Positions 52,265 to 56,752 of a DNA stretch of 64,000 nt are shown piece after piece (position 1 is the stretch's first letter; the number at the start of each line of letters is the position of its first letter). The DNA is from Jiangella anatolica. Lineage in GTDB: Bacteria; Actinomycetota; Actinomycetes; Jiangellales; Jiangellaceae. Location of the stretch: the NCBI RefSeq assembly GCF_003236295.1, contig NZ_POTW01000022.1:1-64000 (forward strand), in the 5' to 3' direction. The notes below the pieces were generated by a model. That model was not told where the DNA came from. It did no database searches and worked only from the letters and a program-made list of their open reading frames with translations. The position numbers and the translations under genes are program-made.

Positions 52265-53602
52265 TCAGCGGACCGCGCCGGTGACCATCCAGGTGTCGCT
52301 GCGTTCCCGCAGCGCCAGCGTGACCAGGCGGACCAGCATCCAGAGGCCGATCGCGCCCCACAGCCACATCAGGCCGGCCCGCCCCGACACATCGGCGACG
52401 GAGACCGCCCAGGCCGCCGGCAGGAACGCGGCGACCGACAGCACCGACGCCCACGCCAGGTAGCGCCCGTCGCCGGCGCCGATCAGCACGCCGTCGAGCA
52501 CGAACACCCAGCCGGCGATCGGCTGCATCGCCGCGGCCACCACCAGTGCGGCGAACAGCAGCGAGCGCACGTCCGGGTCGGATGTGAACAGCCGCGCGTA
52601 GCCGCTGCCGATCACCAGCAGCAGCACCGCCAGCGCGACCCCGGACAGCACGCCCCACTGGACCATCCGCCGGGTGATCGACCGCGCGCCGTCCACGTCG
52701 CCGGCGCCGAGCGCCCGGCCGACCAGCGCCTGCGCGGCGATCGCGACGGCGTCGAGGATCAGCGCCAGCAGCGTCCACGTCGTGAACGCGACCTGGTGCG
52801 CCGCCAGCGCCGCCGTCCCCAGCCCGGCCGCCACCACGGTGATCACGATGAGCGCGACCCGCATCGCGACCGTCCGCACGATCAGCGGCACGCCGGCGCC
52901 GAACGCCTGCGCGACGCCGCGCCCGTCCGGCCGGATCGGGACGCCGGCGCGCCGGGCGCCGCGCACCACGACCCGGGCGAAGACCGCCGCCATGCCCGTC
53001 TGCGCGAGGACGGTGCCCAGCGCCGAGCCGCCGATGCCGAGGTCCAGCCCGTACACCAGCACGACGTTGAGGACGACGTTCGCGACCGCCCCCGTCACCG
53101 CGACGTACAGCGGGGTCCGCGTGTCCTGCAGGCCGCGCAGCACGCCGGTGGCGGCGAGGACGAGCAGCATCGACGGGATGCCGAGGAGGCTGATGCGCAG
53201 GTACGTCTCCGCATGACCGGCCACGTCGTCGTCCGGGCCGAACAGCGACACCACCCACGGTGCCAGCGGCCAGCCGGCCGCGACGGTGCCGAGGCCGATC
53301 AGCACCGCCAGCCAGCAGCCGTCGATGCCCGAGCGCAGCGCGCCGGCCTGGTCGCCCGCGCCCAGCCGCCGCGCCACCGCCGCTGTCGTGCCGTAGGCCA
53401 GGAAGATCGACACGTTCACCAGCGTGCCGAGCACCGCCGACGCGATGCCCAGGCCGGCGAGCTCCGGTGTGCCGAGATGGCCGATGATGGCGGAGTCGGT
53501 GAGCAGGAACAGCGGCTCGGCGACCAGCGCGCCCAGGGCGGGCAACGCGAGCCGCAGGATCTCACCGTCGGCCGGGTGCCGGCGGAACGGATGTCGAATC
53601 AT
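52265..53602 (-). CDS. MATE family efflux transporter (DinF-like)
   Basis: A protein of 445 residues with twelve hydrophobic helices in two similar halves and the MATE-typical segments LALPALGALVAEPLFLLTDSA and GLQDTRTPLYVA. It exports cationic drugs or metabolites by H+ or Na+ antiport. The ATG at 53602 is preferred to the start at 53821, which would add a sequence lacking protein character and cover the DnaA-box cluster. It diverges from dnaB; the same MATE-dnaB neighbourhood occurs in Streptomyces. Confidence 0.92.
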   Translation of the reverse strand: MIRHPFRRHPADGEILRLALPALGALVAEPLFLLTDSAIIGHLGTPELAGLGIASAVLGTLVNVSIFLAYGTTAAVARRLGAGDQAGALRSGIDGCWLAVLIGLGTVAAGWPLAPWVVSLFGPDDDVAGHAETYLRISLLGIPSMLLVLAATGVLRGLQDTRTPLYVAVTGAVANVVLNVVLVYGLDLGIGGSALGTVLAQTGMAAVFARVVVRGARRAGVPIRPDGRGVAQAFGAGVPLIVRTVAMRVALIVITVVAAGLGTAALAAHQVAFTTWTLLALILDAVAIAAQALVGRALGAGDVDGARSITRRMVQWGVLSGVALAVLLLVIGSGYARLFTSDPDVRSLLFAALVVAAAMQPIAGWVFVLDGVLIGAGDGRYLAWASVLSVAAFLPAAWAVSVADVSGRAGLMWLWGAIGLWMLVRLVTLALRERSDTWMVTGAVR

Positions 53603-53671
53603 GGCAGCACCGACGGTAGAGGTGACACCTGTCATCGCGTGACCGTTGTCTCGCCATCTGAGATCGTGCCC

Positions 53672-53836
53672 TGTGGATCTCCGTCCACACCCCGTGGACG
53701 ACGAATGTCGCTCGTGACCTGGGGTGACGTTCGAGCTGTGAACAACTCGCCGAGGCGCTGTCCCCAGGGTTGTCCACAGTTGGGGATGATCGTTTACGCG
53801 GTGCCTCCACAGCTCCTCCACAGCACCTGTGGATCA
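53672..53836. promoter_or_regulatory. Cluster of DnaA-box-like 9-mers upstream of dnaB
   Basis: Within 165 nt there are two perfect boxes, TTGTTCACA (53737-53745, minus) and TTGTCCACA (53770-53778, plus). Near-matches are CCGTCCACA (53681-53689), TCCTCCACA (53814-53822), TGATCCACA (53828-53836, minus), AGATCCACA (53672-53680, minus) and a weak GCCTCCACA (53803-53811). They fill the gap between the MATE gene and the dnaB promoter. DnaA regulation of dnaB, or DnaA titration, is the likely meaning; there is no dnaA/dnaN pair here, so it is not oriC by position. Confidence 0.65.
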
Positions 53837-53841
53837 TCGAC

Positions 53842-53871
53842 TTGGCGACGCGCCGACGCGGGCCATAGGTT
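53842..53871 (+). promoter_or_regulatory. Proposed promoter of dnaB
   Basis: TTGGCG (53842-53847) and TAGGTT (53866-53871) are 18 nt apart. The leader to the GTG start would be about 55 nt. The last DnaA-box-like site ends 5 nt before the -35, so DnaA could interact with polymerase here. Confidence 0.45.
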
Positions 53872-53932
53872 CGCCAAACAGCGGTGGCTGTTAGAACATA
53901 TGTATGGACGACCCGGTGCCGGAGGTGTGTGC

Positions 53933-56752
53933 GTGAGCGTCGCGGAGCTGCCGGATCGCCGGGAGGAAGCCCCGGCCGACTACGGCCGCACGCCCCCGCA
54001 GGACGTCGCCGCCGAGCAGTCGGTGCTGGGCGGCATGCTGCTGTCCAAGGACGCCATCGCCGACGTCGTCGAGATCCTCCGCGGCCACGACTTCTACCGG
54101 CCGGCGCACGAGGCGGTCTACGAGGCGATCATCGACCTCTACGGCCGCGGCGAGCCCGCCGACGCCGTCACCGTCGCAGCCCAGCTGCAGAAGCGCGGCG
54201 AGCTCGGCCGGGTCGGCGGCGCGCCGTACCTGCACACCCTGGTCTCCTCCGTCCCGTCGGCCGCGAACGCCGGCTTCTACGCCGACATCGTCCGCGAGCG
54301 GGCCATCCTGCGCCGCCTGGTCGAGGCCGGCACCCGCATCGTCCAGCTCGGCTACAGCGACGACGGCGACGCCGACGCCATCGTCGACCGCGCCCAGGCC
54401 GAGGTCTACGCCGTCACCGAGAAGCGGGCCTCCGAGGACTACCACCCGCTGTCGGAGATCATGGAGGGCACCCTCGACGAGATCGAGGCGATCGGCTCCC
54501 GCGGCGGCCAGATGGTCGGCGTCCCCACCGGCTTCACCGACCTCGACGCGCTGACCAACGGCCTGCACCCCGGCCAGCTGATCATCCTCGCCGCCAGACC
54601 GGCCGTCGGGAAGGCGCTGGCACTGGACACCCCCCTGCCGACGCCGACCGGCTGGACGACCATGGGCGAGGTCCGGGCCGGCGACCTGCTGATCGGCGCC
54701 GACGGCCGGCCCACCAGGGTCGTCGCGGCGACCGACGTCATGACCGACCGGCCCTGTTACGAGGTCGAGTTCTCCGACGGCACGGTCATCGTGGCCGACG
54801 CCCAGCACCAGTGGGCGACGACCACCCGGGCGGGACGGCGTGCGGCCGCGGAGCGTCGTCCGCGCCGGTACTACTGGCCCGACGCGTCGGTGGCCAGGGC
54901 CTGCGCCATCGCCCACCGCGCCGAGCACGAGGCCGACCGCCTCGTCACCGCGGCGCAGGCGGTCGCCGAGGTCGGCAGCGAGTTCCGGCACGCCATCCAC
55001 GGCGCGGTCGAGGCGGTCCGGGCCGGCGCCCCGACCTCGGGCACGACGTACTCACGTCGCCGACTGCTCGGCGAGCTGGCGAGCCGGGTGTCCCGGCCGG
55101 TGGGCAGTTGGTCCGCCGCCGAGCATCCCGGCATCGTGACGACCGAGGAGCTGGCCCGGACCCTGCGCTCCGCGGGCGGCGACCGCCGGCTCAACCACGC
55201 GGTGCGGCTGGCCGAGCCGTTCGAGCTGCCCGACCGTGACCTGCCGCTGCCGCCGTACGCCCTTGGTGTCTGGCTCGGCGACGGCCACAGCGCGTCGGCC
55301 CGGTTCACGTCCGACGATCCCGAGATCGCCGCCGAGATCCGCCGCGCGGGTCTGCGGGTCGAGCCGCGCGGCCCCCGGCTCTACTCGCTGCGGCTACCTG
55401 AGCCGGCGCCGATCGCCGAGCGTGACTGCGTGGTCTGCGGCGCCTCGTTCGTGCCGAAGACCAGTCAGGTCCGCACGTGCGGACGGCGCTGCGGTGGACG
55501 GGTCCGCGGCCTGCCCGGAGCGGGCGCGGCACCGACGTGCCCCGACTGTGGCCGCCCCTCCTCGGGGATGCGCCGCTGCGACGCCTGCCACCGTGACCAC
55601 GGCACCGTCCAGGCCCTGCTGCGGACCATGGGCGTTCTCGGCGACAAGCACATCCCGGCCGAGTACCTGCGTGCCTCGATCCGGCAGCGCCGCGACCTCC
55701 TCGCCGGCTTGCTCGACACCGACGGCTACGTGAACCCGAACGGCGTGGTGCAGTTCGCCGTCACCAACCGCCGGCTGGCAGAGGACACGCTCGAGCTCGT
55801 CCACTCGCTGGGCTACCGGGCCCGCATGACCACCAAGCGGGTCCCTGGCCGCAGCGAAGCCACGTCGACGTCGTACTGCATCACCTTCACCCCGCGCGAC
55901 CCGGTGTTCCGGTTGCGGCGCAAGCTGGAGCGGCAGCGTCTCGGCAGTGGCCCGACCGCCCGCATGGTGGTCGACGTCCGTCCGGTGCCTTCCGTCCCGG
56001 TCCGCTGTGTCGAGGTCGACAACGCCGACCACCTGTACCTGGCCGGCCGTTCCTGCATCCCGACGCACAACTCGACCCTGGGACTCGATCTGGCCCGGGC
56101 GGCGTCGATCAAGAACGGGCTGACCTCGGTCATCTACTCGCTGGAGATGGGCCGCAACGAGATCACCATGCGGCTGCTCTCCGCCGAGGCCAAGGTCCCG
56201 CTGCACCACATGCGCTCCGGCCAGATGACCGACGACGACTGGAACCGGATCGCCCGCAGCACCGGCGAGGTCTCCAGCGCGCCGCTCTACATCGACGACT
56301 CGCCGAACATGACGATGATGGAGATCCGGGCCAAGTGCCGGCGGCTCAAGCAGCGCAACGATCTCCGCCTGGTGATCATCGACTACCTGCAGCTGATGTC
56401 CAGCGGCAAGCGGGTCGAGAGCCGGCAGCAGGAGGTCGCGGAGTTCTCCCGGGCGCTCAAGCTGCTGGCCAAGGAGCTCGAGGTCCCGGTCATCGCGATG
56501 AGCCAGCTCAACCGTGGTCCCGAGCAGCGCCAGGACAAGAAGCCCATGCTCTCTGACCTGCGCGAATCGGGCAGCATCGAGCAAGATGCCGACATGGTGA
56601 TCCTGCTGCACCGCGAGGACGCCTACGAGAAGGAGTCGCCGCGGGCGGGGGAGGCCGACTTCATCGTGGCCAAGCACCGCAACGGGCCGACCGCCACCAT
56701 CACCGTCGCGTTCCAGGGCCACTACAGCCGCTTCGTCGACATGGCCCAGTGA
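53933..56752 (+). CDS. dnaB: Replicative DNA helicase DnaB, interrupted by an in-frame intein
   Basis: The precursor has 939 residues; after removal of a 486-residue intein the helicase would have 453, the normal length. The N-terminal domain begins DVAAEQSVLGGMLLSKDAI. The P-loop RPAVGK/ST is split: the intein lies between Lys (codon ending 54613) and Ser (56072). Walker B reads LVIIDYLQLM and the C-terminal DnaB motifs (MSQLNRGPEQR, RESGSIEQDADMVILLHR) are intact. It unwinds DNA at the fork. The GTG at 53933 follows GGAGG by 7 nt; the ATG at 53900 is an alternative. Because the P-loop is split, activity depends on splicing. Confidence 0.97.
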   Translation: MSVAELPDRREEAPADYGRTPPQDVAAEQSVLGGMLLSKDAIADVVEILRGHDFYRPAHEAVYEAIIDLYGRGEPADAVTVAAQLQKRGELGRVGGAPYLHTLVSSVPSAANAGFYADIVRERAILRRLVEAGTRIVQLGYSDDGDADAIVDRAQAEVYAVTEKRASEDYHPLSEIMEGTLDEIEAIGSRGGQMVGVPTGFTDLDALTNGLHPGQLIILAARPAVGKALALDTPLPTPTGWTTMGEVRAGDLLIGADGRPTRVVAATDVMTDRPCYEVEFSDGTVIVADAQHQWATTTRAGRRAAAERRPRRYYWPDASVARACAIAHRAEHEADRLVTAAQAVAEVGSEFRHAIHGAVEAVRAGAPTSGTTYSRRRLLGELASRVSRPVGSWSAAEHPGIVTTEELARTLRSAGGDRRLNHAVRLAEPFELPDRDLPLPPYALGVWLGDGHSASARFTSDDPEIAAEIRRAGLRVEPRGPRLYSLRLPEPAPIAERDCVVCGASFVPKTSQVRTCGRRCGGRVRGLPGAGAAPTCPDCGRPSSGMRRCDACHRDHGTVQALLRTMGVLGDKHIPAEYLRASIRQRRDLLAGLLDTDGYVNPNGVVQFAVTNRRLAEDTLELVHSLGYRARMTTKRVPGRSEATSTSYCITFTPRDPVFRLRRKLERQRLGSGPTARMVVDVRPVPSVPVRCVEVDNADHLYLAGRSCIPTHNSTLGLDLARAASIKNGLTSVIYSLEMGRNEITMRLLSAEAKVPLHHMRSGQMTDDDWNRIARSTGEVSSAPLYIDDSPNMTMMEIRAKCRRLKQRNDLRLVIIDYLQLMSSGKRVESRQQEVAEFSRALKLLAKELEVPVIAMSQLNRGPEQRQDKKPMLSDLRESGSIEQDADMVILLHREDAYEKESPRAGEADFIVAKHRNGPTATITVAFQGHYSRFVDMAQ
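54614..56071 (+). other. Class 3 intein with LAGLIDADG endonuclease and two Cys4 clusters
   Basis: A segment of 486 residues starting ALALDTPLPTPTGW, with Ala instead of Cys/Ser at position 1, and ending CIPTHN before Ser+1. Trp67 (QHQW), Cys465 (VRCVEVDNADHLYLAG) and Thr484 form the W-C-T triplet of class 3 inteins, in which the block F Cys makes the first thioester. LAGLIDADG motifs are at about 216-225 (ALGVWLGDGH) and 362-371 (LLAGLLDTDG). Between them are C272-x2-C275-x13-C289-x3-C293 and C309-x2-C312-x9-C322-x2-C325, which look like two zinc-binding units. Splicing should restore the DnaB P-loop. Confidence 0.9.

Follow-up and report, generated by a model that had tools for sequence, protein, structure and literature searches.

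The window, that is, the whole stretch of DNA analysed here, spans positions 1–64,000 of contig C143 in a 7.0-Mb draft genome of Jiangella anatolica, and the region of interest within it separates a gene for a MATE-family transporter from the divergently transcribed dnaB, which encodes the replicative helicase. The GC fraction of this intergenic region is 0.618, compared with 0.732 for the whole window. DnaA boxes were predicted from sequence by using the actinobacterial consensus TTRTCCACA, and the number of invariant columns in each box was taken from an alignment of 12 Jiangella genomes. The features of the locus, one per line, are as follows.

52265–53602, minus strand: MATE-family transporter gene, divergent, start codon at 53602 (Pfam MatE, 7.5e-52)
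53603–53932, no strand: MATE-dnaB divergent intergenic region of 330 bp, carrying the DnaA-box array
53672–53680, minus strand: DnaA-like box AGATCCACA of the distal inverted pair; core match, 2 mismatches; 5/9 columns invariant
53681–53689, plus strand: DnaA-like box CCGTCCACA; core match, 2 mismatches; 8/9 columns invariant
53693–53701, minus strand: weak box TCGTCCACG; 4/9 columns invariant
53737–53745, minus strand: TTGTTCACA, 1 mismatch to TTRTCCACA; 0/9 columns invariant
53758–53766, plus strand: weak box CTGTCCCCA, 12 nt ahead of the strong box; 5/9 columns invariant
53770–53778, plus strand: strong DnaA box TTGTCCACA, exact match; 8/9 columns invariant
53781–53789, minus strand: weak box TCATCCCCA; 9/9 columns invariant in the 12 genomes
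53803–53811, plus strand: core-match box GCCTCCACA; 6/9 columns invariant
53814–53822, plus strand: core-match box TCCTCCACA, 11 nt after the 53803 box; 6/9 columns invariant
53828–53836, minus strand: promoter-proximal DnaA box TGATCCACA, 1 mismatch, 5 nt ahead of the -35
53842–53871, plus strand: predicted dnaB promoter, TTGGCG (53842–53847), 18 nt, TAGGTT (53866–53871); conserved in the genus alignment
53893–53906, no strand: LexA/SOS-box-like AGAACATATGTATG, 2 mismatches to CGAACRNRYGTTYG, between the dnaB promoter and start
53921–53925, plus strand: GGAGG, likely ribosome-binding site of dnaB, from the sequence
53933–56752, plus strand: dnaB, replicative helicase, GTG start at 53933 (Pfam DnaB and DnaB_C; TIGR00665 above cut-off)

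The dnaB gene is interrupted by an intein-like insert with a LAGLIDADG endonuclease domain (Pfam LAGLIDADG_3, Hom_end), which runs from about 54614 to about 56030 and sits in the Walker A motif. Its first residue is Ala and, by eye, it has Trp, Cys and Thr at what we take to be the class 3 intein places.

Composition and density of the box array

The 165 nt from 53672 to 53836 contain the core TCCACA six times, and nine sites there match the consensus with no more than two mismatches. The initial annotation had counted two perfect boxes among them; the strong box at 53770 is the sole exact match, and the boxes at 53737 and 53828 have one mismatch each. Since none of its columns is invariant, the box at 53737 is probably a chance match, and the earlier count therefore probably includes one such match. 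The weak box at 53781 belongs to the module TGTCCCCA-ggg-TTGTCCACA-gt-TGGGGATGA and is also present in the nine Jiangellaceae sequences compared, and TTGTCCCCA placed 12 nt ahead of a box is found again in other genera. Of the 90 box columns 63% are invariant, as opposed to 24% of the 76 non-box columns between 53700 and 53840 (Fisher p 4e-7), although the box columns stand out less against all 240 intergenic non-box columns (37.5% invariant), since conservation extends to the promoter and to the MATE end of the region.

A distal pair resembling that at 53672/53681 was seen by eye in other families. The distal pair (53672–53701) and its counterparts are followed by a CAGGTCA-like sequence in several families (8/58 by a strict pattern), and an AT-rich ACTTTCTT-like stretch often lies ahead of the inverted pair, as judged by eye. 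No classical DnaA-trio was recognised by eye beside the boxes.

All three box counts for these 165 nt equal the maximum of the 64,000-base window. A wider comparison in 330-bp windows covered 464.6 kb of the genome, a non-random sample made up of the window, the locus of oriC and 20 other stretches. When no more than one mismatch is allowed, the best of these 330-bp windows contain 5 boxes at oriC, 3 upstream of dnaB and 3 at the dnaA promoter, and at most 2 elsewhere; the region upstream of dnaB ranks first in TCCACA cores with 6, followed by oriC and the dnaA promoter with 4 each and all others with at most 2. When two mismatches are allowed, oriC, the dnaB upstream region and the dnaA promoter reach 10, 9 and 7, respectively, and the next window 6. 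Thus, in these 464.6 kb, a comparable density occurs only at oriC and the dnaA promoter, and the earlier description of a dense array in the MATE-dnaB intergenic region, adjoining a predicted promoter, agrees with both the coordinates and this comparison. Over the whole genome, 513 matches with at most one mismatch were found versus 487 for the reversed pattern; single matches therefore mean little, and only clustering and conservation carry weight.

The predicted dnaB promoter rests on conservation; a generic sigma-70 scan reported none at dnaB. Relative to it, the distance of 5 nt between the last box and the -35 given in the initial annotation is correct, with the box ending at 53836 and TTGGCG starting at 53842.

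Conservation and helical phase in front of dnaB

Sixty relatives were searched, dnaB was present in 59 and the upstream region was obtained from 58, as G024 gave no match and the contig of G037 begins at the gene. The 500 bp upstream of dnaB in these 58 actinomycete genomes contain 171 boxes with at most one mismatch, in comparison to 7.45 in shuffles and 26 for the reversed pattern in the same regions, and only 5 boxes lie between −1000 and −500 of dnaB (57 loci). At least one box is present in 56 of the genomes, at least two in 50 and at least three in 35; taking one genome per genus, the first two figures become 34/36 and 29/36. The initial annotation had named conservation of the cluster in front of orthologous dnaB genes as a check, and the boxes are kept there, with only G028 and G050 (2/58) having no box with at most one mismatch in the 500 bp. 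The best 80 named loci of a longer list, 60 from Streptomyces and 20 from other genera including Jiangella, Kribbella, Actinomadura and Cellulomonas, all have at least one box, 77 of them at least two and 73 at least three. Outside the class, 134 genomes gave a match, and 40 of these, from 33 families, were examined; they contain 22 boxes, whereas shuffles give 3.25 and the reversed pattern gives 3, with at least one box in 16/40 and at least two in 5/40. Judged by predicted boxes, the array characterises the class Actinomycetes and has sporadic counterparts elsewhere.

The spacing of the boxes was analysed together with their number. The start positions of the plus-strand boxes in the window are 53681, 53758, 53770, 53803 and 53814, which gives steps of 77, 12, 33 and 11 nt. 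For one genome from each of 36 genera, and counting as boxes all sites that have a TCCACA/TCCCCA core or no more than one mismatch, the same-strand distances show a period of 10.9 bp with an R of 0.73 (206 pairs), a value not reached in any of 2000 random placements, and restricting the analysis to boxes with one mismatch or none gives an R of 0.72 (83 pairs, 0/2000); pair distances from homologous arrays are dependent via shared ancestry, which is answered only in part by the distinct spacings alone, for which R is 0.54 (70 values, 0/2000). The distances between boxes vary among genera yet stay near phase, a pattern to be expected if the DnaA molecules need a common orientation. A limited literature search found no title or abstract opening on helical phasing of DnaA boxes at actinomycete dnaB.

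The contact between the last box and the -35 is distributed differently from the array. A box-like sequence accompanies TTGGCG at the offset of the 53828 box in 12/12 Jiangella genomes, and the arrangement reversed box-5 nt-TTGG is found in the same 12/12 and in G035 and G053. Followed by TANNNT, it recurs in 58 of the 60 Streptomyces loci among the best 80 named loci, whereas among the 20 others in that set the contact is seen in three (two Jiangella, one Actinacidiphila) and is absent from 17. The gap between box and -35 is 4 nt in G034 and G052, from one other family, and in the Jiangellaceae G012, G013 and G014 the last box lies 30–40 nt from the predicted -35. On these sequence comparisons, the -35 contact is a trait of some groups and the phased array a trait of most.

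DnaA as a candidate regulator of dnaB

Binding of DnaA upstream of dnaB has been reported for M. tuberculosis in vitro and for M. smegmatis by ChIP-seq, in the part of PMC7738170 accessible to us, where the site is one of five main DnaA sites; the DnaA I282T variant binds less at this site and its strain under-expresses dnaB. Both this site and ours place DnaA at the upstream region of an actinomycete dnaB, but binding is shown for mycobacteria whereas the Jiangella site is known from sequence alone. The accessible part of PMC7738170 describes neither phasing nor conservation beyond mycobacteria. A DnaA-bound dnaB upstream region is hence of a kind already known in mycobacteria, while its class-wide conservation and phasing are what the present comparison adds. 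In Caulobacter crescentus, predicted DnaA boxes lie upstream of dnaB, the expression of which is DnaA-dependent as a member of the DnaA regulon, as stated in the accessible part of PMC8203912, although this is an unrelated phylum and the likeness of the arrays is not a claim of homology. Within the Jiangella genome itself, the inverted box pair TCCACACCCYGTGGACGA is common to the dnaB upstream region (53684–53701) and to the dnaA promoter on contig C183 (L034); the latter has three boxes no further than about 250 nt from the dnaA start, whereas the dnaB array is larger and lies upstream of a predicted -35. Streptomyces clusters of DnaA boxes outside oriC, near oriC as here and likewise from an actinomycete, were reportedly described by Smulczyk-Krawczyszyn et al. 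in 2006, the effect for which PMC4585315 cites them being on initiation.

In light of these data, we consider it probable that this region controls dnaB in response to DnaA, which is predicted to bind there in Jiangella. This explanation is favoured because conservation, phase and the mycobacterial binding data carry it, and for the same reason our confidence in it is unchanged by the restriction of the -35 contact to a few groups. DnaA would occupy the strong box and several weak ones, placed at intervals of about 11 bp along one side of the helix, and would assemble, presumably cooperatively, ahead of the dnaB promoter; the last DnaA molecule in Jiangella and Streptomyces would stand next to RNA polymerase at the -35. 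Activation would be the likeliest effect, through a feed-forward loop: the initiator would increase the supply of the helicase that has to be loaded after it. If the promoter is indeed controlled by DnaA, activation seems rather likelier to us than repression. Sites upstream of a -35 suit activation over blockage in general, and the position of this array would accordingly fit activation better. The sign is also suggested by analogy with one M. tuberculosis mutant allele and with Caulobacter. A point against control of the promoter by DnaA is the length of the array, which exceeds what a simple activator site would require. The initial annotation had offered three readings, of which a coupling between DnaA level and helicase supply has the best support, with boxes that are class-wide, independent of the MATE gene, adjacent to the -35 in two groups and matched by published mycobacterial binding; taken as a whole, its interpretation stands in part.

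The independence from the MATE gene follows from a search of up to 1.5 kb upstream of dnaB (500 bp for G035), which found such a gene in 32 genomes and detected none within the searched stretch in 26. The mean number of boxes is 2.94 with the neighbour (n=32) and 2.96 without a detected one (n=26), and the predicted boxes are conserved with dnaB and not with the neighbour. The boxes might instead serve the divergent MATE gene, as the divergent layout and the position of the distal inverted pair (53672–53701) nearer to that gene could suggest, but we regard this as very improbable given that 24 of the 26 genomes without a detected MATE neighbour, in the limited stretch searched, keep at least one box. 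Sites of the datA/DDAH type promote, with IHF, the hydrolysis of DnaA-bound ATP, and an array whose main role is to sequester or inactivate DnaA close to the origin, standing at dnaB by happenstance, would account for the many boxes and for their origin-proximal location, dnaB being about 26–143 kb from dnaA in 12 genomes (four of these distances cross contig ends and assume a circle). It would also be in line with a passage on S. coelicolor and B. subtilis in the accessible part of PMC4585315, where origin-near DnaA-box clusters of S. coelicolor are cited as restraining initiation. However, a pure sink needs neither a box number that is equal with or without a detected MATE neighbour nor the box that abuts the -35 in two groups, and we judge titration unlikely as the main role; the two functions are compatible, and titration may be a side effect of a DnaA-controlled promoter.

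The density of boxes and their in-phase layout also recall an origin, and the initial annotation had raised a secondary loading site. Apart from box density this has no positive support, and we find a secondary origin or helicase-loading site scarcely credible. In actinomycetes oriC lies between dnaA and dnaN, and this genome has a separate dnaA-dnaN region on C183, with dnaA and boxes in the next intergenic region. The cluster has no AT-rich stretch, its best 30 nt being 50% AT as compared with 60% in the intergenic region and 57% in the presumed oriC, which AT content does not separate either. By the usual GC-skew rule for origins, the change near 52 kb (4-kb tiles, about +0.04 to −0.06 to −0.01) is weak and of the opposite sense. 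Another protein may read the same word, since TTGTCCACA-like pairs at a 29-nt distance, of the form TGTCCACA-N20-TTRTCCACA, lie in front of several genes of this genome, among them recA, an SSB-domain gene and a DUF4192 gene. Nevertheless, their spacing differs from that at dnaB, 29 nt falling outside the 11-bp phase of multiples of about 11, and mycobacterial DnaA has been reported to occupy the region upstream of dnaB (accessible part of PMC7738170), so that binding of a different regulator with this recognition word is very improbable in our view.

The LexA/SOS-like sequence downstream of the promoter was scored against the LexA consensus CGAACRNRYGTTYG. Counterparts without mismatch occur in G029, G034 and G052, from two other families, and in the last 150 nt before dnaB the best LexA match has at most two mismatches in 27/58 genomes, of which 12 are Jiangella, versus 31/1160 single-base shuffles and 0/57 stretches further upstream. 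For M. tuberculosis strains, the accessible part of PMC8151990 notes that dnaB is preceded by a putative SOS box and is over-expressed on mitomycin treatment. More speculatively, and with considerable doubt, we propose that the array is an ancestral feature of Actinomycetes, phased like an origin sub-complex, on which a DnaA filament at the dnaB promoter would act as a switch that reads active DnaA and gives a burst of helicase when initiation is possible; together with the LexA-type box, the initiation cycle and DNA damage would then both set helicase supply.

We know of no DnaC/DnaI helicase loaders in actinomycetes, and how these bacteria match helicase to initiator is therefore the question that such a circuit addresses. 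With a phased array before dnaB in most genera sampled, an initiator-to-helicase circuit becomes directly testable, and the published mycobacterial peak would, as the data suggest, be one case of an old arrangement.

Paired boxes elsewhere in the genome

Eight pairs of the 29-nt type are present in the Jiangella genome, all with one spacing although 6–36 nt were allowed, and the reversed control gave none. Their positions, by contig, are as follows.

C16:724–760, 29-nt pair
C20:8070–8106, 29-nt pair
C87:3–39, 29-nt pair
C165:23895–23931, 29-nt pair
C192:12881–12917, 29-nt pair
C198:5001–5037, 29-nt pair
C232:377–413, 29-nt pair
C242:14505–14541, 29-nt pair

Each of the other 11 Jiangella genomes has 2–12 such pairs; a few exceed this spacing by 1 nt and one by 14 nt. 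The downstream sequence was read for seven of the eight pairs, and six of the genes there were compared with Pfam; besides the three named above, one has a below-cut-off match of MinD/ParA type and two have no Pfam match. From their sequences, the 29-nt pairs look like an unnamed regulon, perhaps of DNA repair or uptake.
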